Positions 26,264 through 38,357 of a stretch of 64,000 nucleotides of DNA are shown piece after piece. Under the pieces are notes generated by a model. It was not told where the DNA came from. It did not search any database and saw only the letters and a program-made list of their open reading frames with translations. How positions within the stretch are numbered: position 1 is the stretch's first letter; the number at the start of each line of letters is the position of its first letter. Source of the DNA: Acinetobacter kyonggiensis (GTDB lineage Bacteria > Pseudomonadota > Gammaproteobacteria > Pseudomonadales > Moraxellaceae). The stretch is taken from assembly GCF_900107285.1 (NCBI RefSeq), contig NZ_FNPK01000002.1, forward strand, positions 124,001 through 188,000, given 5' to 3'. Position numbers and translations under genes: made by a program.

Positions 26264-26956
26264 CTATAACAGCATTTTAATCAATGCAATCACGGGTGGC
26301 GCAAATAGAACCATAATTATGCCAGAAATAATCATCGACAAACTTGCCACGACCCCTTCCTCGGAATGACGTTGTTGCGCCCGAGCAATCCCCATTGCAT
26401 GTGCAGCATTACCAAATGCAGCACCATAAGCAATCCGATGCGGATATCTCATCCACATCAAAAACAGGTCTCCAAATAACATCCCCACTAATCCTGTAAT
26501 CACAGTAAAAAGTGGAATAAGACTAATAGAGCCATCAATTTTTTCAGTTAAGATTAAGGCAAATGGGATAGAAATCGAACGTGCCAATAAACTATTTTTT
26601 ACGATTTGCTCAATATTAAGTAAATTTGCCAAACACCAGCTGCTTAAAATACCAATCAACATCGAAATACTGGAGGTGATAATTAAAACTTTAAAATATT
26701 TACGGATCATCGTTCTATATCTAAATACAGGAATTGCAAATGCCACAGTAATTGGCCCGAGCATTGCCACTAAGTATTGGGTATAACTGTAATAATCCTG
26801 AAAAGTACGCTGAAAAGTGAGAATGCTTAAAATACTCAATATGGGCACAATAATAATGGGAGAAAAATAAATCTTTCTTGTGTGTATAAATAATTTCTTG
26901 GCAAAGAAATAACACACAAGCGTCCATATAAAGAAAAATATTCCCCAAAGTGACAT
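26264..26956 (-). CDS. lrgB: LrgB/CidB family membrane protein
   Basis: 230-residue polytopic membrane protein of the LrgB/CidB family, partner of LrgA in modulating murein hydrolase export and cell lysis; some members transport pyruvate or glycolate. Family blocks include YLVAMLGPITVAFAIPVFR, ARSISIPFALILTEKIDGS, and AYGAAFGNAAHAMGIARA then HSEEGVVASLSM near the C-terminus. Its start overlaps the end of lrgA, so the two are coupled. The length is normal. Confidence 0.92.
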   Translation of the reverse strand: MSLWGIFFFIWTLVCYFFAKKLFIHTRKIYFSPIIIVPILSILSILTFQRTFQDYYSYTQYLVAMLGPITVAFAIPVFRYRTMIRKYFKVLIITSSISMLIGILSSWCLANLLNIEQIVKNSLLARSISIPFALILTEKIDGSISLIPLFTVITGLVGMLFGDLFLMWMRYPHRIAYGAAFGNAAHAMGIARAQQRHSEEGVVASLSMIISGIIMVLFAPPVIALIKMLL

Positions 26957-27339
26957 TATTTAACCTCATCCTGTTTTAATAACATCCTGACACTAAGCAT
27001 TGAACTTGCCATCACCAGAAAAGTACTGATAAAAATTACGATGACGATTTTCCATCCGCTACTCATGAGTAATTGCTGATATTGAATAACCCCAACCACA
27101 GGCGGAATAAAAAATAAAAGTAATTCAGTTAACAATAGGTTAGCACCGTGTTCCACCTGCTCTAGTCGAATCCATTGCATTTCAAGCAAAAATAATAGAA
27201 TGAAGAAACCCAACACGCCTGATGCAATTGGTAAATGTAAAAATTTTTGAATGCTATAAGCAAAGCCCCAAACTATCAGGATCAGAAGAATCTGTAATAA
27301 CGTAACTCGCAGCTGTTTTAAACGGAATGAACTCAACAT
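26956..27339 (-). CDS. lrgA: LrgA/CidA family holin-like membrane protein
   Basis: 127-residue holin-like protein with four hydrophobic segments. It contains LPIASGVLGFFILLFLLE and GANLLLTELLLFFIPPVVG, which align with the CidA/LrgA pattern (LPIPGSVLGLLLLF and LLxxMxLLFVPxxVG). It is the first gene of the lrgAB pair on the minus strand. A LysR or LytR regulator is often adjacent but none is seen here. About 200 bases without features separate it from the unknown gene upstream. Confidence 0.9.
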   Translation of the reverse strand: MLSSFRLKQLRVTLLQILLILIVWGFAYSIQKFLHLPIASGVLGFFILLFLLEMQWIRLEQVEHGANLLLTELLLFFIPPVVGVIQYQQLLMSSGWKIVIVIFISTFLVMASSMLSVRMLLKQDEVK

Positions 27340-27538: not shown

Positions 27539-28354
27539 TTAAAGACGAGGACTAAATACAGAATTTTGATGTTGTAGACAGGTTTGCATATATTCAGCAT
27601 AAACAGATAATTTTTCATAAATATGCTCGGCATAGAACATATCTTCAATTAAGTGAATGCTTTGCTGCGTATTATAACTATCACAATACTGAAGCAGCTC
27701 AGCATTAATTTCTGAAAATTTTTCACAAAGTTTAATATAGTCTGCATCTTTGTTTTTAAATAATAATTTACGCGTATTCAGCTCACCACTATCGATAATT
27801 TTTTCCTGATGCTGTGTGCTAATTAGGCGGATACTCACTTTAAAAAATATTTCTAATTCATTTCGTTTTTCAGGATTAATGTTCAAATTTGTAATAATGA
27901 AAATACTTGAAACATCCGCTCTACACAGGGCTTTAATAAGGGACAGATATAAAAAATCACTCTCCTCTAATTCAGTCAGACTTAAATCTAAATAAATATT
28001 TAAAGTGCTCAAAACTTCGTCTATTTTCAAAGTCTGCTTTTTTTCTGCCTGATAATAAGTATTCAAAATATTAAGAACAGGCTCCGTTGCAGGTGTATTA
28101 TAAATCACTGTTTTATTCAGGTTCGCTAAAATAAAAGGTGCAAAAAGAAAAGCTAAACTTGCCTGCTCTGCTTGAATTTCAGATTGAATAATATAATGAA
28201 CTTTAAGCTTTGAAAATTCACGTAAAACTTTGGCACGTAATAATGTTGCTTCTAAATTGACATATTGCTGTTGCAATATATTCTTTAATTGCTCAGAAAA
28301 ACTCTTTGTTTCGATGAGTTCTGAGAGTGTATTCAATTTCTCTGTAACAAACAT
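27539..28354 (-). CDS. Hypothetical protein, unrecognised (271 aa)
   Basis: I do not recognise this protein. It is predicted to be soluble, largely helical and rich in Leu, Ile, Glu and Asn, with no signal peptide or membrane segment and no catalytic signature. A middle section (ALCRADVSSIFIITNLNI) has alternating strand-like hydrophobics, and the C-terminus (EDMFYAEHIYEKLSVYAEYM) is helical. The composition is AT-rich compared with housekeeping neighbours. It is divergent from cydA, sharing a 390-base intergenic region that contains a perfect 18-bp inverted repeat. Two further in-frame starts are possible near the N-terminus. Confidence 0.6.
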   Translation of the reverse strand: MFVTEKLNTLSELIETKSFSEQLKNILQQQYVNLEATLLRAKVLREFSKLKVHYIIQSEIQAEQASLAFLFAPFILANLNKTVIYNTPATEPVLNILNTYYQAEKKQTLKIDEVLSTLNIYLDLSLTELEESDFLYLSLIKALCRADVSSIFIITNLNINPEKRNELEIFFKVSIRLISTQHQEKIIDSGELNTRKLLFKNKDADYIKLCEKFSEINAELLQYCDSYNTQQSIHLIEDMFYAEHIYEKLSVYAEYMQTCLQHQNSVFSPRL

Positions 28355-28523
28355 TGCATCACCATTTTGCTTCGAATCTATATTTCATGAGTATTTCACT
28401 TGCTCATTCAATGCCGATCCGTCATGTCCGATCCCAACTTGATGCATTAACAAATAGCCACTCATGAGACTGAAATAGATTTTGTCGTGATGCTGCTCAA
28501 ATGTATAGCTACAAAAACATTGG

Positions 28524-28574
28524 AAAAAAATATAACAGTTTTAAAAATCACAGTTCAAACTGTTATATTTTTTT
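28524..28574. promoter_or_regulatory. Perfect 18-bp inverted repeat upstream of cydA
   Basis: Arms AAAAAAATATAACAGTTT (28524-28541) and AAACTGTTATATTTTTTT (28557-28574) surround a 15-base loop, about 175 bases before cydA. The core TATAACAG...CTGTTATA and the following 35 bases recur at 33004-33039. This suggests a regulator-binding site with a promoter rather than a terminator, although the A/T runs would also fit a weak bidirectional terminator. Confidence 0.6.
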
Positions 28575-28747
28575 AAGCAATTTTCTGTACCTACTCATCA
28601 TTTAAATTGTGATGCAAGATAAAGTAATTCCTCTTGATCGGTGGTTTAAATGAAACGATCTCTTACTTTTTGTGCTGTTTTATCAACTGACTGTTGTTCT
28701 ATCCGTCATGTAAAACGCAATGATCTGCTCACAATGTGGAGAGTGAT

Positions 28748-30208
28748 ATGAGCCTCGGACTCACTGCTCTAGAATTAGCGCGCATACAATTTGCTTTTAC
28801 TGTTTCTTTTCACATTATTTTCCCTGCTACTTCTATTGGTCTGGCATGTTTCCTTGCGGTACTGGAATGGAAATGGTTGCGTACTCAAGACCCGATCTAT
28901 AAAGATTTATTCAAGTACTGGATTAAAATCTTTGCTGTTGCCTTTGGTATGGGCGTGGTATCAGGCGTTGTCATGAGTTATCAGTTTGGTACTAACTGGA
29001 GCGAATTCTCACGCATAGCAGGCAGTATTACGGGGCCTTTACTGACCTATGAAGTGCTAAGTGCTTTCTTTCTTGAAGCTGGTTTTCTCGGCATTATGCT
29101 GTTTGGCTGGGGACGAGTCAGTCCAAAAGCACATTTCTTTGCAACGCTCATGGTGGCAATTGGCACCTGTATTTCCATGTTCTGGATTTTGTCTTCCAAC
29201 AGTTGGATGCAGACCCCGCAAGGCTTTGCCATTGAAAATGGCATTATTGTACCTACCGACTGGTGGGCCATTGTCTTTAATCCATCCTTCCCCTACCGTT
29301 TTGCCCATATGGCTACCGCAGCATTCCTCGTGTCATCTTTACTGGTGGTCGGTACAGCAGGATGGCATTTACTCAAAGGGCGTCGTGATACTTTGGTTAA
29401 AAAATCATTCTCTATGGGTTTATGGATGGTTCTGATCACCTCATGTTTACAAGTCGTTATTGGCGATCACCACGGCTTAAACACTCTAAAACATCAACCT
29501 GCAAAACTGGCAGCGATTGAGGGACACTGGGAAACCAATCGTGATCATGCAATGCCACTGCTGCTGTTTGCAATTCCAGATATGCAAAATGAACGCAATG
29601 CAGTCGAATTCGGCATTCCTCATTTGGGGAGTCTGATTCTCACCCACTCGATGGATGGTCAAGTCACAGGCTTAAAAGATTTTGCAGCTGAAGATCGTCC
29701 AAATGTACCAATCGTCTTCTGGAGCTTTCGTGTCATGGTCAGTCTGGGAATGTTGATGGTACTGCTCTCTTTGATTGCACTCTGGTTACGTAAGCAAGGT
29801 TCATTGTATGAAAGCTCATGGTTCCATAAATTTGCCATCATCATGGGGCCTACGGGTTATGTTACCTTATTAGCAGGTTGGGTCACCACTGAAGTCGGTC
29901 GTCAGCCGTGGGTAGTTTATGGCGTGATGCGTACTCGGGATGGTTTATCCCACTCTGTCACAGCGGATCAAGTCGGTCTTAGTCTGCTTATTTTTGTGTT
30001 GGTCTATACCGTGGTGTTTGGTAGCGGCATTTACTACATGCTCAAACTGATTAAAACTGGCCCTGCGTTCTTAGACAGTTTAGCACCTGAAGAAACAGCG
30101 GGTCTGGGTCATTTTAAAACCCCATTACGTCCACTGAGTGCTGTGGATGAAATGATTGATGATGAAACATCAACGACAGATCAAAATAAGGAGAAACATC
30201 ATGATTGA
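28748..30208 (+). CDS. cydA: Cytochrome bd-type (CIO-like) ubiquinol oxidase subunit I
   Basis: Heme-bearing subunit (486 residues) of a cytochrome bd quinol oxidase in the inner membrane, reducing O2 to water without proton pumping. Heme ligands and motifs are present: the His in FTVSFHIIFP, FGMGVVSGVVMSYQFGTNW, PYRFAHMATAAFLV, and the GRQPWVVYGVMRT motif. It is shorter than E. coli CydA (522), and the Q-loop region is of the short, CioA-like type linked to cyanide-insensitive oxidases. GGAG lies at a good distance before the ATG at 28748; an upstream ATG at 28736 lies at the edge of that SD. The last bases overlap cydB. Confidence 0.93.
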   Translation: MSLGLTALELARIQFAFTVSFHIIFPATSIGLACFLAVLEWKWLRTQDPIYKDLFKYWIKIFAVAFGMGVVSGVVMSYQFGTNWSEFSRIAGSITGPLLTYEVLSAFFLEAGFLGIMLFGWGRVSPKAHFFATLMVAIGTCISMFWILSSNSWMQTPQGFAIENGIIVPTDWWAIVFNPSFPYRFAHMATAAFLVSSLLVVGTAGWHLLKGRRDTLVKKSFSMGLWMVLITSCLQVVIGDHHGLNTLKHQPAKLAAIEGHWETNRDHAMPLLLFAIPDMQNERNAVEFGIPHLGSLILTHSMDGQVTGLKDFAAEDRPNVPIVFWSFRVMVSLGMLMVLLSLIALWLRKQGSLYESSWFHKFAIIMGPTGYVTLLAGWVTTEVGRQPWVVYGVMRTRDGLSHSVTADQVGLSLLIFVLVYTVVFGSGIYYMLKLIKTGPAFLDSLAPEETAGLGHFKTPLRPLSAVDEMIDDETSTTDQNKEKHHD

Positions 30209-31205
30209 TCTGGCTTTAATCTGGGTCGGTATTATCGGTCTAGGTGTCCTTATTTATGTCGTTATGGATGGTTTTGACCTTGGGATTGGGATTTTATTCC
30301 CATTCATTCAGGATCATCAGGAACGTGATGTAATGATGAATACCGTTGCCCCAGTTTGGGACGGCAATGAAACATGGATGGTGCTAGGTGGGGCAAGTTT
30401 ATATGCTGCCTTCCCCTTGGCGTATGCGACTATTCTTTCCGCACTTTATCTGCCAATTACCTTCATGGTGGTGGCCTTAATTTTCCGTGGCGTTGCATTT
30501 GAGTTTCGTTTTAAAGCAACGCGTACCAAATATTTGTGGGATCAAGCCTTTATTTGGGGTTCGATTCTATCTAGCTTCTTTCAAGGTGTGATTCTTGGTG
30601 CTTATATTCAGGGAATTGAAACCACGCATGGAATTTACAGTGGTGGTGCGTGGGATTGGTTGACACCTTTCTCTATTTTCTCTGGCATAGGTGTGGTTGC
30701 CATGTATGCAGCACTGGGTTGTGGTTGGTTAATTCTTAAAACGGAAGCAAGCTTACAGCACACCATGTATCAACTTATGCCAAAGTTAATCATTGCTTTG
30801 TTGATTATCTTTGCGGGTGTCAGCTTATATACTCCATTTACCCATCCTGAAATTGCACAGCGCTGGTTCTCTTTACCCAATCTTTTCTATTTCAGCCCTG
30901 TACCAATTTTAGTGCTACTTTTTGTCTGGCTTATTATCTCTGCTTGCAAGAAACAGCAAGATGTTAAACCGTTTATCTATACGTTGGCATTGGTGTTTCT
31001 CGCATTTACTGGCTTTATTATCAGTTTATGGCCAAATATTATTCCGCCATCTGTGACCATCTGGCAAGCAGCATCACCAGAATCAAGTCTGAAATTTACC
31101 TTGGTTGGTGCAGTCATTTTGATCCCGATCATTATGACTTATACCTTCCTATCTTATTGGGTATTTCGTGACAAAGTTCGTATTGGCGATGAGGGTTATC
31201 ATTAA
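30201..31205 (+). CDS. cydB: Cytochrome bd-type ubiquinol oxidase subunit II
   Basis: 334-residue membrane subunit paired with CydA. The start at 30201 follows an AAGGAG and gives MIDLALIWVGIIGLGVLIYV, then the signature YVVMDGFDLGIGILFPF and WDGNETWMVLGGASLYAAFP. Eight to nine hydrophobic segments are apparent. It overlaps cydA by eight bases and is followed 18 bases later by a 42-codon DUF2474-like gene. The whole unit looks like the CIO arrangement. Confidence 0.95.
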   Translation: MIDLALIWVGIIGLGVLIYVVMDGFDLGIGILFPFIQDHQERDVMMNTVAPVWDGNETWMVLGGASLYAAFPLAYATILSALYLPITFMVVALIFRGVAFEFRFKATRTKYLWDQAFIWGSILSSFFQGVILGAYIQGIETTHGIYSGGAWDWLTPFSIFSGIGVVAMYAALGCGWLILKTEASLQHTMYQLMPKLIIALLIIFAGVSLYTPFTHPEIAQRWFSLPNLFYFSPVPILVLLFVWLIISACKKQQDVKPFIYTLALVFLAFTGFIISLWPNIIPPSVTIWQAASPESSLKFTLVGAVILIPIIMTYTFLSYWVFRDKVRIGDEGYH

Positions 31206-31223
31206 TTTTTGGAGGCATTTTTA

Positions 31224-31352
31224 ATGAATAAACTGATGTCTAAAATGAACTCAAACCAATGGTTTATTGTCCTATGGTTAGTTGGATTTCTAGGATTGGC
31301 ATTGATTGCTGGACTGTTCCGAGTTCTGTTATATTTTGCTTATCCGTCATAG
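31224..31352 (+). CDS. DUF2474-like small subunit of bd oxidase (42 aa)
   Basis: Small membrane protein with one helix. It opens MNKLMSKMNSNQWFIVLWLV and ends LFRVLLYFAYPS, which fits the DUF2474 family found directly after cyanide-insensitive oxidase genes. A strong GGAGG at 31211-31215 precedes the ATG, and the gene starts 18 bases after the cydB stop. Like CydX in E. coli it probably stabilises the oxidase, but that is inference. It is too short for most ORF callers. Confidence 0.8.
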   Translation: MNKLMSKMNSNQWFIVLWLVGFLGLALIAGLFRVLLYFAYPS

Positions 31353-31439
31353 CAGTTTAATGCAATCTATCGACATTCATGGTTTTCCAGATTGGACTGA
31401 ATTGACTTGTTACAGTAGCCAAGCAACTATGATAAAAAC

Positions 31440-31470
31440 ATATGGATAGAGTGATCTATCCATATTTTAT
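31440..31470 (+). terminator. Hairpin after the cyd operon (terminator or operator)
   Basis: Perfect 11-bp arms (atatggataga / tctatccatat) around GTGA, followed by TTTTAT. It lies between the cyd genes and the MocR gene, about 30 bases before the MocR start, so it may end the cyd transcript or regulate mocR. Confidence 0.5.
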
Positions 31471-31495
31471 CTACATTATGATGACCTGAATTGTT

Positions 31496-32923
31496 ATGTA
31501 TAAATCTGAAAAACTTGCCAACAGCCTAAAATTATTGATTGAAAATGGCACTTGGAAAGCCAATGAAAAATTGCCCTCCTTGCGCCATCAAGCAGAACTA
31601 TCGGGTTTTAGCTTGATTACGGTCATGAATGCGTATCAAGAACTGGAAGCGCAAGGACTGATTTATTCAAAAGAAAAGTCGGGTTATTTTGTGGTTGCAC
31701 AACAACCTGCAAATGATGAACAAAATCAGAATGTCACACTCAATGCTAAAATTGAAATTAACTCGACTGTATTTCAATATTTAAAATCCATTCAACCCGA
31801 TACGATTATTCCTTTTGGCACTGCTTTTCCGAATAGCCAATTGCTCTATTCAGCCAAATTAATCCAGACTTTAGGACAACTCGCCCGACATAGACTGAGC
31901 TATGAACAAACGCCCAGCTTGCCACCTGGTAATTTCGCCTTACGAAAACTAATCGCTCAACGCTATTGTATGCAAGGGATTCAGACTGACCCGTCAGACA
32001 TTGTGATTACATCGGGTGGATTAGATGCTTTGAACTTGTCTTTACAAGCCATGACGCAAGCAGGTGATTATATTTTATTGCAACAGACTATTTTTTATGG
32101 CGCATGGCAAGCGGCAGAACGCTTGGGCTTAAAAGTGATTACCATTCCTGAACATCCTGAACATGGAATTGATCTGAATGCCTTTGAACAAGCAATTCAA
32201 AAATACCCCATCAAGGTGTGTCTACTGATGCTGAATTGTCATAATCCGATTGGGTTTACCGTGAGTGATGAAATTAAGTTTCAATTGGCAAAGTTATTAC
32301 ATCAGTATGAAATTCATTTGATTGAAGATGATGTCTATGAAGAACTGCATTATGACCATAAAAAACCACTCTCAATGAAATACTTTGATCAGCAAAATCT
32401 GGTGCTACATTGTTCTTCATTCTCTAAAACATTAGGCGCAGGCTTTCGTGTGGGCTGGGTCTATGCAGGAAAATTTTCCGAACATATTCAACATATTCAG
32501 TTAATGAGTACACTATCGGTCAATTCATTTATTCAAAATGCACTGGTTGAATATTTATCACACCGTCATTATGAAAAGCATCTTAAAACCCTACGTTCAT
32601 CCTTGGAGCGTAATAAAAAACAGTTTTATGCTTATCTAACAGAACATTTACCACCTGTATGTAAAATTGCCTATTATCCCTCAGGTTATTTCTTATGGAT
32701 TGAATTACCTGAATATATAGAGAGTGTCTATATTTATCAGCTACTATTAGCTCGAAATATTAGCATTGCACCCAGCGTCTTATTTAATGCTAACTTTGCT
32801 AAACAAAATAATTTCTTACGGATTAATTGTTCTTTTGACTTTAATGATCGGATTAAATTTGCTTTGTCACAGGTGGTTGAATGTATTCAATATGCTATAA
32901 ATAACCCTTCTGTACGATCATAA
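31496..32923 (+). CDS. MocR-type GntR regulator with aminotransferase domain
   Basis: 475-residue MocR/GabR-like regulator. The N-terminal winged HTH spans about residues 1-66 (KLPSLRHQAELSGFSLITVM). A class I aminotransferase-like domain fills the rest: NCHNPIG at 248-254, IEDDVYEEL near 277-284, and the PLP-binding lysine at 311 in SFSKTLGAGFRVGW. Such proteins bind direct or inverted repeats and respond to PLP or amino compounds. It sits directly after the cytochrome bd operon, and similar inverted repeats flank the module on both sides, which makes cyd control by this protein a reasonable hypothesis. No aminotransferase substrate can be assigned. Confidence 0.88.
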   Translation: MYKSEKLANSLKLLIENGTWKANEKLPSLRHQAELSGFSLITVMNAYQELEAQGLIYSKEKSGYFVVAQQPANDEQNQNVTLNAKIEINSTVFQYLKSIQPDTIIPFGTAFPNSQLLYSAKLIQTLGQLARHRLSYEQTPSLPPGNFALRKLIAQRYCMQGIQTDPSDIVITSGGLDALNLSLQAMTQAGDYILLQQTIFYGAWQAAERLGLKVITIPEHPEHGIDLNAFEQAIQKYPIKVCLLMLNCHNPIGFTVSDEIKFQLAKLLHQYEIHLIEDDVYEELHYDHKKPLSMKYFDQQNLVLHCSSFSKTLGAGFRVGWVYAGKFSEHIQHIQLMSTLSVNSFIQNALVEYLSHRHYEKHLKTLRSSLERNKKQFYAYLTEHLPPVCKIAYYPSGYFLWIELPEYIESVYIYQLLLARNISIAPSVLFNANFAKQNNFLRINCSFDFNDRIKFALSQVVECIQYAINNPSVRS

Positions 32924-33003
32924 TTTATCTCGTTTAAAGCCTCAATTGATTCATAAAAGTCAGTATTTTATAATTTCTATTGTTGGATTTATATGCACAT
33001 AAC

Positions 33004-33039
33004 TATAACAGATGAATAAAAACACATAAATCTGTTATA
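33004..33039. promoter_or_regulatory. Second copy of the TATAACAG inverted-repeat element
   Basis: Ten-base arms TATAACAGAT (33004-33013) and ATCTGTTATA (33030-33039) spaced by 16 bases. The total span is 36, against 37 for the core of the cydA-upstream copy. The downstream sequence (TTTTTTTAATCATTTTTTGT) aligns with that after the first copy. It stands about 90 bases before the 40-codon membrane ORF. Confidence 0.6.
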
Positions 33040-33126
33040 TTTTTTTAATCATTTTTTGTATCTACACGTTTAAAGCTAAACTCGACATAATGATGTTATC
33101 TTAAAGGCTAAGCAGTGGGCATCAAT

Positions 33127-33249
33127 ATGAATTCATTAAAAAAGAAAAACAAAGCGAGTTTTGTATTTTTCATCATCACACTTTATGCATTCATTGGATT
33201 CGGTTTAGGTTATCTCATTTGGGAATATATTTTACAAAAAAGTATATAG
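33127..33249 (+). CDS. Small single-helix membrane protein (40 aa)
   Basis: Frame with a basic start MNSLKKKNKASF, one hydrophobic helix (about residues 12-31) and a short tail (WEYILQKSI). It looks like a genuine small membrane protein but matches no family I know. It lies downstream of the second inverted-repeat element, which shares sequence with the cydA upstream region. The ribosome binding site is weak. Coregulation with cytochrome bd is inferred only from the shared element. Confidence 0.45.
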   Translation: MNSLKKKNKASFVFFIITLYAFIGFGLGYLIWEYILQKSI

Positions 33250-33402: not shown

Positions 33403-36400
33403 TTGCTAAGCTGCCTACATGGCAGTGAACTGGCTTTTATAGCATTGAGATGACGGATGTATTTTCTAAGCTGCCTACATGGCAGTGAACATAGCCCCTT
33501 GCTTCGTCATTGAAATACTTTCATTTCTAAGCTGCCTATATGGCAGTGAACTTTGCAACTAAGCTGTCATATTGCCCTGAAAATTTCTAAGCTGCCTATA
33601 TGGCAGTGAACGATGCAGAATGAATTGGCACAATGGGGTAAGTTTTCTAAGCTGCCTATATGGCAGTGAACAATCAACTCAATTTTTTGGGTGGATTGTT
33701 CTTTTTCTAAGCTGCCTACATGGCAGTGAACTTCTCTTGTAGAAATGAGCGTGTAGGTGCATATTTCTAAGCTGCCTACATGGCAGTGAACACCACACCA
33801 ACACCAGATCGGGTTGATGATGTTTTCTAAGCTGCCTACATGGCAGTGAACAGTCCTAGCTGATAGCTTTGAAGAGCTACAAATTTCTAAGCTGCCTACA
33901 TGGCAGTGAACGCTATTATCGGACGGCGCTGTATTGGTCTTTTTTTCTAAGCTGCCTACATGGCAGTGAACCATACATCATGGCGGGCATTGCACGTATG
34001 AATTTTCTAAGCTGCCTACATGGCAGTGAACACTAATCGAAGAAATTTATTAATATAGTGTGCTTTCTAAGCTGCCTACATGGCAGTGAACGATTAATAA
34101 CTTTCAATGATCACACTGTTTCTTTTCTAAGCTGCCTACATGGCAGTGAACATCGCATTCAGGGCACACGTATCGACGCGGCTTTTCTAAGCTGCCTACA
34201 TGGCAGTGAACAATCGAAAATTTTCCCTGGCAAAGATTGAATATTTCTAAGCTGCCTACATGGCAGTGAACCTTCTACTGATAATCCACCTCCACCTAAT
34301 GAATTTCTAAGCTGCCTACATGGCAGTGAACAAGTGGAATAAGTGCAAAGGCCATGTATTTGATTTCTAAGCTGCCTACATGGCAGTGAACAAGCATTAG
34401 AAAATACGACTAATACTGCTACTTTTCTAAGCTGCCTACATGGCAGTGAACGTCCCCGACCAGTCATAACCATGTGCATATAATTTCTAAGCTGCCTACA
34501 TGGCAGTGAACGCTTTGGAGTAACATCACGAGCATCATTATCATTTCTAAGCTGCCTACATGGCAGTGAACTCAATATCCATCTGTGACAGAGTTTAGTA
34601 TTGTTTCTAAGCTGCCTACATGGCAGTGAACATTTTAATGGTTTAGGTTGGTCGTTATGTCAATTTCTAAGCTGCCTACATGGCAGTGAACTCATGGATT
34701 CAGTTCAAGCAGAAGGCGGAAACTTTCTAAGCTGCCTACATGGCAGTGAACGGTGTTTCGGTAACATCAACCACTGCTCAAGGTTTTCTAAGCTGCCTAC
34801 ATGGCAGTGAACATTCTTCTGTATGTCAGCGTGTTATTGATGATTTTCTAAGCTGCCTACATGGCAGTGAACCTTCTACTGATAATCCACCTCCACCTAA
34901 TGAATTTCTAAGCTGCCTACATGGCAGTGAACGGTTGACAGTAGGTTGGCCGTCTGGGATAAGCTTTCTAAGCTGCCTACATGGCAGTGAACCAACGCAC
35001 CTCTAAGCCGTCGCTAACTTTTTGATTTCTAAGCTGCCTACATGGCAGTGAACATAATCCTGTCATTTGTCCATCAGATGTATCATTTCTAAGCTGCCTA
35101 CATGGCAGTGAACAAGTTTTGGGGTGCAATGCTTGGCTGGGTTAATTTCTAAGCTGCCTACATGGCAGTGAACTGTAATTGTTGCCGTAATAAAGCGCAT
35201 CTAATTTTCTAAGCTGCCTACATGGCAGTGAACCTGTGGAATTATTGTTCCATTCACCACGGTCATTTCTAAGCTGCCTACATGGCAGTGAACGGAAATC
35301 ACGAAACAGATGGTTATCAAGCGTGGTTTCTAAGCTGCCTACATGGCAGTGAACAAAGGAGTGGTACGGGTATGAATTTAATGCATTTTCTAAGCTGCCT
35401 ACATGGCAGTGAACCAAGCTATTCCACCAAACCCTGAATTTAGCGGTTTCTAAGCTGCCTACATGGCAGTGAACTCAATGACACATAACCTTGCGTTTCT
35501 AGATCATTTCTAAGCTGCCTACATGGCAGTGAACTTTCTCCTGAATTTGTTGTTACTCTGAAATCATTTCTAAGCTGCCTACATGGCAGTGAACTTAACC
35601 CTCTAGATTACGGTGCAAAATTTGATTTTCTAAGCTGCCTACATGGCAGTGAACGGATGGTCGCGGGCTTGGTAGTGACTGGGACGTTTCTAAGCTGCCT
35701 ACATGGCAGTGAACGCTCAGTAGTGGTTCACCGCGAACCTCATCGATTTCTAAGCTGCCTACATGGCAGTGAACCAACTTTGCCAAATGGAACGGTAATC
35801 CCTGCTTTTCTAAGCTGCCTACATGGCAGTGAACATTGTTTTATAGCTCACGCTTCATCTCCTTGTTTTCTAAGCTGCCTACATGGCAGTGAACAACCTC
35901 CCATGATCCGACAATATTCCCGCTATTTTCTAAGCTGCCTACATGGCAGTGAACGGTTTTATCTTTGCTCATGAAAAGCGCTCAGATTTCTAAGCTGCCT
36001 ACATGGCAGTGAACATTGGCTATCGCTGGTGCTGCTCGTTTGAATTTTTCTAAGCTGCCTACATGGCAGTGAACGAAACTAAGGCGTGAATCATATACAG
36101 TTGAAATTTCTAAGCTGCCTACATGGCAGTGAACGCACAGTCACAATTGGGTGTAAGTATCCAACATTTCTAAGCTGCCTACATGGCAGTGAACTCAAGA
36201 TGATCTCTATTCACTTCAGATAGATATTTCTAAGCTGCCTACATGGCAGTGAACTTTATAATTTGCATAAGTGATCGGTATTTTAATTTCTAAGCTGCCT
36301 ACATGGCAGTGAACTTTTACCTGACTTGCCCAGCGTGCCATCTCGTCTTTCTAAGCTGCCTACATGGCAGTGAACATCGTGGCTTTCCCGTCGTCTGTAA

Positions 36401-37638
36401 GTGGATCTTTCTAAGCTGCCTACATGGCAGTGAACTTTTTACAAACAATAGAATAAGAACCCCAATTTTTCTAAGCTGCCTACATGGCAGTGAACCATCT
36501 CGTTTAACACCTTGAGTTTTTAACAATTTTCTAAGCTGCCTACATGGCAGTGAACAACAAAACACTCAATAGAATGTTTAATGATATTTTTCTAAGCTGC
36601 CTACATGGCAGTGAACAAAAGCGCATGAGATTGAATTTCGTAAACAGTTTTCTAAGCTGCCTACATGGCAGTGAACGAGCTGAGCGATAATTTTCGTTCA
36701 GTGTATAATTTCTAAGCTGCCTACATGGCAGTGAACCAGGGAAGAACATCCCAATCATTCCTGTTTATTTTCTAAGCTGCCTACATGGCAGTGAACCTTA
36801 GATTCTTTCGAGGCTTTTCGCATCCCTTTTTCTAAGCTGCCTACATGGCAGTGAACGTCGTTACCAGTTTTTAAAGCCTACATGGGATTTTCTAAGCTGC
36901 CTACATGGCAGTGAACTTTATTGATACGGCCTATGAATTTCGTATTGCTTTCTAAGCTGCCTACATGGCAGTGAACAAGAGTTCGCCATTTCGAATAGTG
37001 CCCTCATATTTCTAAGCTGCCTACATGGCAGTGAACGCTGAAAACTCTCGATGGAATACAGTTTCAGGCTTTCTAAGCTGCCTACATGGCAGTGAACCGA
37101 AAGTAACAGTACTGAGCGCAACAGATGGCTTTCTAAGCTGCCTACATGGCAGTGAACAGCAAAATAAATGCATCGCCGTTGTCGTAATTATTTCTAAGCT
37201 GCCTACATGGCAGTGAACTTGAAGTTTCCCACCATTCTGTAACTAGAGTTTTTCTAAGCTGCCTACATGGCAGTGAACGTCAATGGATGAGTGGTGCAGG
37301 TTATAATCGTTTTCTAAGCTGCCTACATGGCAGTGAACTTTCTTGATTATCACCATAAAAAAATGATGATTTTCTAAGCTGCCTACATGGCAGTGAACGT
37401 AGATGGTCAGAATGATCAGGCAAGCACGCCTTTCTAAGCTGCCTACATGGCAGTGAACTCATTTCTTATACTTGTGATTACTTTGCTATATTTCTAAGCT
37501 GCCTACATGGCAGTGAACAAACAGTTTGGCCAGAACATGATTTACACCTTTTTCTAAGCTGCCTACATGGCAGTGAACTAATTGAAGTCGCGAATTCCTT
37601 GTTTCATCCATTTCTAAGCTGCCTACATGGCAGTGAAC
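33403..37638 (-). CRISPR. Type I-F CRISPR array, 71 repeats and 70 spacers
   Basis: 28-base repeats alternate with 32-base spacers (eight are 33). On the transcribed minus strand each repeat starts GTTCACTGCC, has a loop ATGTA, and ends GGCAGCTTAGAAA. The CTGCC/GGCAG stem is the Cas6f recognition hairpin, and cleavage after it would leave the 8-nt handle CTTAGAAA. The leader side is at 37638, next to cas6f, so the oldest units lie near 33403. Repeats at 33524, 33584 and 33644 carry loop ATATA instead of ATGTA. The terminal repeat at 33403 has one change in the handle. The spacer at 34272-34303 is identical to that at 34873-34904; otherwise the spacers look distinct by eye. Confidence 0.99.
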
Positions 37639-37769
37639 AGTAATTTTATAGCAAAAAATAAAGTTATAACAGTGAGTTAATACTCATAATCTACAAAAGA
37701 CCCAAGTTTCAACCCACTTTTATAACTCATTGATTTTATTAAACTGTTAAAGAGTGAAAAAATATTGGG
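37639..37769 (-). promoter_or_regulatory. CRISPR leader with IHF site and candidate promoter
   Basis: 131 bases between the cas6f stop and the first repeat. On the minus strand AATCAATGAGTTA (37735 to 37723) is a perfect match to the IHF consensus WATCAANNNNTTR, and IHF is known to guide spacer integration in type I-E and I-F systems. Just inside it, TTGAAA (37712-37707) and TATGAG (37688-37683), spaced by 18 bases, form a plausible promoter for pre-crRNA starting about 38 bases before the array. GACCCAA/TTGGGTC at the two sides (37699-37705 and 37765-37771) is an additional inverted pair of unknown meaning. Confidence 0.75.
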
Positions 37770-38357
37770 TCAAAATTCTGGTACAGATGACTCTGAACTT
37801 AAACCATAAGTACTAAAAACCTGACTTTCAGATTGTTCAGCATTTTGCTTTTCTATAAAAAGTTTAAACATTTGATCTGAAGTTAAACTTTTCATTTGGA
37901 CAAATGGCAAATTCGTCGTTGTCACTACATTGCTATAGCGAGCTAAAGCTTCGTCAAAGCCAATATCACCGCGTTTTACTCGATGGCGGGCCAAACGTGC
38001 AGCATTGGTTTTAACTTGCTTACGCTTATAAATAGCGTAACCGTTTATATTCTCTGGGACTTCTCGAATAGAAGTGATGTGAACATAATCAGTTAATCGA
38101 TCTAACCATTTTTTAAGATCAAGTTTTTTCAAATCAGCTTCATTTTGGGCAAAAAGCCGAAGCTTTTCACCCAAAAATCCAATACCTTTTTCCTGATTAA
38201 ATCGATATTGAGGAAAAGACACACCAATATTCACCTTATTATTTGTATCTTTTATTTCAGCCAAAGCAATATGCAACTGCGTATAGAGCTTTGACCAAAT
38301 GAAATACGATGAAATCTCGGCTTGATCAATCAGCGTGATTTCTTGGTAATATTTCAT
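37770..38357 (-). CDS. cas6f: CRISPR endoribonuclease Cas6f (Csy4)
   Basis: 195-residue RNase that cuts pre-crRNA at the repeat hairpin and stays bound to the 3' stem in the Csy complex. The catalytic histidine falls at H29, the same position as in Pseudomonas aeruginosa Csy4, and the arginine-rich segment AARLARHRVKRG (about residues 119-130) corresponds to the RNA-binding helix. The GYAIYKRKQVK block before it is also family-like. The start is two bases after the cas7f stop. It is the last cas gene, directly upstream of the leader and array. The usual length is about 187. Confidence 0.95.
   Translation of the reverse strand: MKYYQEITLIDQAEISSYFIWSKLYTQLHIALAEIKDTNNKVNIGVSFPQYRFNQEKGIGFLGEKLRLFAQNEADLKKLDLKKWLDRLTDYVHITSIREVPENINGYAIYKRKQVKTNAARLARHRVKRGDIGFDEALARYSNVVTTTNLPFVQMKSLTSDQMFKLFIEKQNAEQSESQVFSTYGLSSESSVPEF

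Follow-up and report, generated by a model that had tools for sequence, protein, structure and literature searches.

A predicted MocR-run regulon linking a CIO-type cytochrome bd oxidase and orphan small proteins in Acinetobacter

The stretch analysed here (the window) consists of 64,000 nucleotides (nt) of Acinetobacter kyonggiensis (GCF_900107285.1, contig NZ_FNPK01000002.1, positions 124,001-188,000, forward strand). Two inverted-repeat elements are present in it, one upstream of the cytochrome bd oxidase gene cydA and the other upstream of a gene for a 40-amino-acid protein (small1), and the gene of a MocR-type regulator lies between them. The question raised by this locus is whether the MocR encoded between the two elements uses both as operators and so runs a single regulon, as an earlier note on this DNA had proposed. 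The genome of origin (3.71 Mb) was scanned and 149 Acinetobacter genomes were compared, and the sequence comparisons make the proposal probable. The one-regulon idea is supported by comparative genomics. The membership that had been claimed, the oxidase and small1, is incomplete since a divergent open reading frame (ORF) next to cydA (upORF) and a second small-protein gene (small2) also belong to it.

Both palindromes were confirmed at the positions given for them. The first palindrome (TATAACAG..CTGTTATA) spans 37 nt at 28531-28567 (left arm 28531-28538, right arm 28560-28567) and exhibits 18-bp perfect arms (AAAAAAATATAACAGTTT / AAACTGTTATATTTTTTT) at 28524-28541 and 28557-28574. The second palindrome spans 36 nt at 33004-33039 (+), with 10-bp arms (TATAACAGAT / ATCTGTTATA) at 33004-33013 and 33030-33039. 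The similar sequence 3' of both copies is a 42-nt direct repeat (79%), and the flanking genes are those that had been named, which are cydA and cydB, a DUF2474-like ORF, MocR (GntR and Aminotran_1_2 domains), and the 40-amino-acid ORF. The exact pattern TATAACAGN{12,24}CTGTTATA occurs at only two sites in the genome of origin, both in the window (reversed control, 0), and is present in 67 of the 149 Acinetobacter genomes.

The palindromes were described correctly, but the true extent of the element is larger, with a third box and a -10-like box to be added. The functional unit consists of the inverted half-sites TATAACAGAT / ATCTGTTATA and a direct third box (YTGTAYCTAC) 16-17 nt downstream. 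The promoter alignment covers 85 distinct instances of the arm with its third box, drawn from the loci examined, many of them from related species and part of them fetched around small1; the selection fixed the arm and the third box and left the -10 columns free. The right-arm consensus of these instances is (AT)CTGTTATA. The third box (YTGTAYCTA) starts 16 nt past the right arm in 75 of the 85 instances, 17 nt past it in six and 15 nt in four. A -10-like box lies 30 nt after the start of the third box (best columns A 80/85, A 71/85, and T 75/85), and no conserved -35 hexamer was found at the expected place across the 85 instances, where the third box ends. With its -10-like box at a constant spacing and without a conserved -35, this anatomy suggests an activator-dependent promoter of the class II type. 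The arm-plus-third-box pattern has 103 matches in the 149 genomes and one match in the reversed control. A. pittii and A. nosocomialis also carry the element, in a form whose left arm has two mismatches.

On the cydA side of the window, comparison places the third box (CTGTACCTAC, spacing 17) at 28585-28594 (+), and the alignment places the -10-like box CAAGAT at 28615-28620 (+). On the small1 side, the third box (TTGTATCTAC, spacing 16) lies at 33056-33065 (+) and the -10-like box CATAAT at 33086-33091 (+). A further candidate promoter was identified by comparison on the opposite strand, where CTGTTATA-N16-TTGTAGCTA faces upORF and a CAAAAT box follows with the distance unchanged; its third box (TTGTAGCTAT) lies at 28505-28514 (-) and the CAAAAT box at 28479-28484 (-). 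The search for this operator took the best match within 420 nt before upORF and left two third-box positions free. With at most one mismatch it was found at 35 of 46 loci and in 0 of 460 dinucleotide shuffles, and with at most two mismatches at all 46 loci, each time with spacing 16, and in 5 of 460 shuffles. As the boxes facing upORF recur at every locus and are rare in shuffles, 28479-28620 is predicted to be an operator of four boxes, flanked by divergent promoters and with the first palindrome as its core. A scheme of two classes, activator sites with the third box and autorepressor sites without it, had first been suggested by the sites near mocR. It was dropped, as those sites do have the third box (YTGTNGCTA), which lies on the opposite strand and faces upORF.

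All 103 extended elements in the 149 genomes precede cydA, small1, small2, or upORF. A coordinate join assigned 37 of them to small2, 33 to cydA, 26 to small1, and six to upORF, and the one left over (G014) lies upstream of cydA by sequence (L238). Assignment of the 85 aligned instances by tblastn gave cydA 37, small1 27, small2 14, upORF 5, and mocR 2; some loci among the seven instances given to upORF or mocR also hold the small2 gene. The genome of origin has a third operator before small2 on another contig (L249), with one right-arm mismatch.

The distribution of the element was compared with that of the regulator. The MocR class of each genome was assigned by reading the match table, and 123 genomes have an intact orthologue (>=53% identity, that is, at least 53%), two have a broken or truncated one (G089 and G143), and 24 have none; the 24 include two genomes of only ~65% completeness (G029 and G110). 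The extended element occurs in 78 of the 123 genomes with intact MocR, in one of the two with decayed MocR and in 0 of the 24 without MocR (Fisher p 1e-9, phylogeny ignored), so the element is not widespread in genomes without the regulator. The bare palindrome is present in 66 of the 123 and in one of the 24, and in that single genome (G138) the sequence looks like a terminator hairpin. The small2 gene follows the same pattern (59/123 intact, 2/2 decayed, 0/24 without; Fisher p 1.3e-6, relatedness ignored). The small1 gene is kept (E < 1e-7) in 16 of the 24 genomes without MocR, and no element was found upstream of it in the five such genomes inspected (L213-L216 and L218; best 4-7 mismatches). 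Some targets are in trans: cydA lies ~280 kb from mocR in G078 and on another contig in G130, small1 lies ~340 kb away in G007, and small1 and the palindrome are on other contigs in G125 and G101. The link between element and MocR is therefore not one of mere neighbourhood.

The regulator gene (31496-32923, +) encodes the MocR architecture, with PF00392 (GntR winged helix-turn-helix, E 7.6e-11) and PF00155 (aminotransferase class I, E 1.2e-33). Its best NCBIfam match is PdxR, below the cut-off. The closest MocR proteins outside the genus, among 194 genomes of the same order, exhibit 36-39% identity, and MpaR-type proteins are the best of them by bits. A CcoG/FixG gene lies close by in nine of ten MpaR-type proteins, and this set is presumably Pseudomonas-like; ccoG (PA14_10540) adjoins mpaR in P. 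aeruginosa. According to passages of PMC10790758, which also give the latter arrangement, MpaR is a cyanide-responsive MocR that activates ccoN4, ccoG-mpaR, and nirA in P. aeruginosa, and pocket roles have been assigned to its residues F114, F203, Y284, and K314. All four residues are present in the Acinetobacter MocR, where the lysine of SFSK aligns with K314 as the pyridoxal 5'-phosphate (PLP)-binding lysine. The residue at F114 is F in 21 of 21 proteins of the set made up of Acinetobacter, MpaR-type, and G186 proteins and in 0 of 22 other MocRs, counted without the frameshifted row L195. A wider search covered 369 genomes, 61 of them with a match; the neighbourhoods of 29 loci were viewed and two F114 proteins were added (L266 and L267), one of them beside cytochrome-c-like genes (by eye) and neither beside cioA or ccoG.

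The promoter layout is also common to both groups. At nine of nine MpaR-type loci having ccoG (three of them nearly identical), the ccoG promoter exhibits ATCTGAT in a 10-nt arm, N16 and CTG[AC][AG]YCTGT, and a -10-like hexamer (e.g. CATAGT, TACAGT, GATCAT) 20 nt past the third box, with the spacing seen in the window. In one further family, that of G186, a MocR is divergent from cioA, and ATCTGTTATA-N15-CTGTATCTG faces cioA. The same passages of PMC10790758 report that full ccoN4 activation by MpaR requires ATCTGAT and cyanide, that ccoN4 expression in P. aeruginosa was abolished once ATCTGAT had been scrambled, and that ATCTGAT lies 61-62 bp upstream of transcription starts there. An ATCTGWT arm at a fixed promoter distance was found in Acinetobacter, in both sequence and spacing, and the corresponding arm in the window is estimated to lie ~62-68 bp before the transcription start that the -10 box predicts.

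These observations can be assembled into a mechanism. MocR bound at the arms and the third box, which reaches the -35 region, would act as a class II activator by recruiting RNA polymerase. The regulon in this genome would consist of upORF, cydAB-DUF2474, small1, and small2, and mocR may itself be included by read-through from cydAB-DUF2474. The regulator would be MpaR-like, and its predicted signal is cyanide or a similar respiratory poison, sensed via PLP in the aminotransferase-like domain, because MpaR has the same promoter layout and pocket residues and responds to cyanide. A more specific proposal is tentative and somewhat doubtful. It holds that the MocR runs a regulon dedicated to cyanide sensing and that, in many lineages, the main products are small1 and small2, two unrelated families of orphan single-span membrane proteins. 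These would serve as inducible accessory subunits, protecting or retuning terminal oxidases, and the CIO oxidase and its TrpD-fold partner upORF would be further, optional members.

Several findings weigh against one regulon run by an MpaR-like MocR. No exact extended match is present in 45 of the 123 genomes with intact MocR; the minority of them inspected upstream of small2 or small1 mostly carry altered copies, which have 1-2 mismatches or a spacing of 15 or 17. The gene small1 had been named as a regulon member, and it is preceded by the element in this genome but is not a constant member across the genus: the exact element precedes it in only 26 of the 90 intact-MocR genomes having it, spacing-15 variants add some further cases, and G009, with intact MocR, has no element upstream of it (L217). 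Some genomes with MocR lack a CIO-type cydA (e.g. G034 and G142), so the oxidase is not a constant target. The species are non-independent data points, and the Fisher p values ignore phylogeny. A tree clade of Acinetobacter and MpaR proteins was neither rejected nor proven in the approximately unbiased (AU) test (p 0.376); rows L195 and L194 were left out of this test and of the second tree. Because half-sites like ATAACAGAT occur near MocRs without F114 as well, a likeness of half-sites is weak by itself, and it was rejected as a proof of kinship with MpaR.

Other explanations differ on the signal, on the sign of the regulation, and on the protein itself. The same regulon and activator may respond to PLP status, an amine, an amino acid, or an inhibitor such as sulfide or nitric oxide (NO) rather than to cyanide, and this is quite possible. 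Passages of PMC5320631 describe MocRs that sense varied PLP-linked ligands, some of them controlling redox genes, CIO is reported to confer tolerance to H2S and NO (PMC10968556), and the Acinetobacter arms read ATCTGTT, not ATCTGAT. However, MpaR, the characterised protein with the same layout and pocket residues, is cyanide-responsive, and a CIO-type oxidase is among the targets. It is unlikely that MocR represses these promoters and that a ligand relieves the repression. Many GntR proteins are repressors. The PdxR-type MocRs repress their own gene, according to passages of PMC5320631. The boxes here, however, lie upstream of or up to the -35 region and none lies over the -10, no -35 is conserved, and passages of PMC10790758 describe MpaR as an activator.

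Binding by MocR is predicted from sequence, and another DNA-binding protein could use the element with MocR as a mere neighbour. This is very unlikely given that genomes without MocR lack the extended element although most of them keep small1, that the elements in trans track the presence of MocR, and that the same layout occurs at MpaR-type loci. Hardly credible is the reading of the palindromes as intrinsic terminators made of a hairpin and a T-run. The palindromes have folding energies of -14.2 and -9.3 kcal/mol, both better than all 200 shuffles, T-runs follow them, and the second lies just 3' of mocR. However, the stems are A+T-rich, not G+C-rich, with 15-16-nt loops, the first copy stands between the start codons of two divergent genes, AAAAAAC takes the place of a T-run after many copies, and the third box, the spacing, and the -10 are kept across species. 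The terminator reading was rejected on location and conservation, and the two elements are best read as probable operators of the MocR.

The oxidase operon consists of cydA (28748-30208, +; PF01654), cydB (30201-31205, +; PF02322, TIGR00203), and a gene for a DUF2474-like third small subunit (31224-31352, +), whose PF10617 match (E 0.0044, 17.5 bits vs cut-off 26.6) is below the gathering score. The cydA product is of the CIO type with a short Q-loop. Its alignment is without the long Q-loop of E. coli CydA, both chains of which have ~60 extra residues between two aligned blocks, and the short-loop 5doq aligns as one block. A strong hairpin at 31437-31468 (-17.4 kcal/mol), possibly a terminator, lies between the DUF2474 gene and mocR. 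A 33-codon ORF in the cydA leader (28650-28751) has a stop that overlaps the cydA start (ATGA). It was rejected as a conserved peptide, with a clear match in the closest relative only. The ATG-A/G-AACGATCT stretch of this leader recurs in two other loci (L221 and L080).

The upORF gene (27542-28354, -), divergent from cydA, encodes 271 amino acids and is regarded as the fourth target from its facing operator. No Pfam family was found for it in the family search. Its AlphaFold model (predicted local distance difference test, pLDDT, 78; predicted template modelling score, pTM, 0.78) resembles the anthranilate phosphoribosyltransferase (TrpD) and thymidine-phosphorylase folds (Foldseek E 3e-4; Z 9.4 over 194 residues at 4.2 A), a likeness of fold that shows no function. 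In three of three loci inspected (L295-L297), two from genomes without MocR and one (G001) with it, a second cioAB-DUF2474 cluster is followed by a divergent relative of upORF (25-30% identity). In two of these loci the gene after that is of the MocR type but different from this one, and the same trio has thus been assembled twice. This recurrence favours a functional link between upORF, CIO, and MocR-type regulators.

The small1 gene (33127-33249, +) has homologues (E < 2e-7) in 107 of the 149 genomes. The products of small1 and small2 are short and conserved, each showing a single hydrophobic stretch by eye; small1 is a predicted single-span protein, and both may have a role in respiration. 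The Pfam search of 18 small1 and 14 small2 members gave scattered weak matches only. COX7C was rejected as the small1 family (2 of 18 members, best E 0.16), and the idea that small1 is a CIO subunit was weakened by its occurrence without CIO-type cydA (e.g. G003, G012, and G034). The small1 and small2 operators of the genome of origin (window 33004-33091 and L249, upstream of 1574 (-)) are nearly letter-identical, as though the promoter of one gene had been duplicated in front of the other. In G143, which has only a MocR fragment, small2 keeps an intact arm and third box with spacing 15 (L250), perhaps a regulon caught losing its regulator. Half-sites like ATAACAGAT flank a MocR outside the F114 group near 1423 of L272, and this half-site is thus wider than the MpaR group.

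A clustered regularly interspaced short palindromic repeats (CRISPR) array at 33406-37640 starts ~155 bp after small1 and holds 71 copies of CTAAGCTGCCTAYATGGCAGTGAAC, the first at 33406 and the last at 37614. The nearby ORF at 37770-38357 (-) is presumably Cas6f/Csy4. Downstream of upORF, two ORFs at 26264-27339 (-) look like an LrgA/LrgB (CidA/CidB) membrane pair.

Bacterial cyanide sensing is described as poorly understood in passages of PMC10790758. No paper describing this regulon in Acinetobacter was found in the open-access papers searched, subscription papers being outside the scope. The predicted regulon gives a testable prediction across the genus, with a defined operator, a regulator, and four targets. 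It would place three protein families without function (small1, small2, and upORF) in one response, and it offers a possible route by which a CIO-type oxidase could be induced.

The findings can be compared with three known systems. The oxidase resembles CIO-type cytochrome bd of subtype C in passages of PMC5322542, with its short Q-loop CydA, CydB, and a DUF2474-like protein likewise placed; the co-regulated upORF and orphan small proteins were not found described in those passages. The commonest MocR motif type in passages of the motif survey (PMC5320631) consists of two direct boxes and one inverted box. The Acinetobacter element similarly has two direct boxes ~30 bp apart and one inverted box if the third box, read as a direct repeat of the arm, is taken as ATCT[AG] or ATCTAC. 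However, the main text of that survey does not mention Acinetobacter (0 occurrences), and its passages gave no description of a four-box operator common to two divergent activated promoters. The closest comparison is with MpaR. The Acinetobacter MocR differs from the MpaR-type proteins found by its ~37% identity to them, by its arm (ATCTGTTATA, compared with ATCTGATNNG), and by an added inverted left arm and bidirectional four-box version. Where MpaR has ccoG, ccoN4, and nirA, it would act on CIO-type cydAB, upORF, and the genes of two orphan small proteins, and its own gene is not beside ccoG or ccoN4 but has cydAB, upORF, or the small proteins as neighbours. Both regulators share the MocR architecture, the four pocket residues, and the layout of arm, N16, third box, N20, and -10 at ccoG promoters, which suggests that the MpaR operator is bipartite, with one layout common to MpaR-type loci and Acinetobacter.

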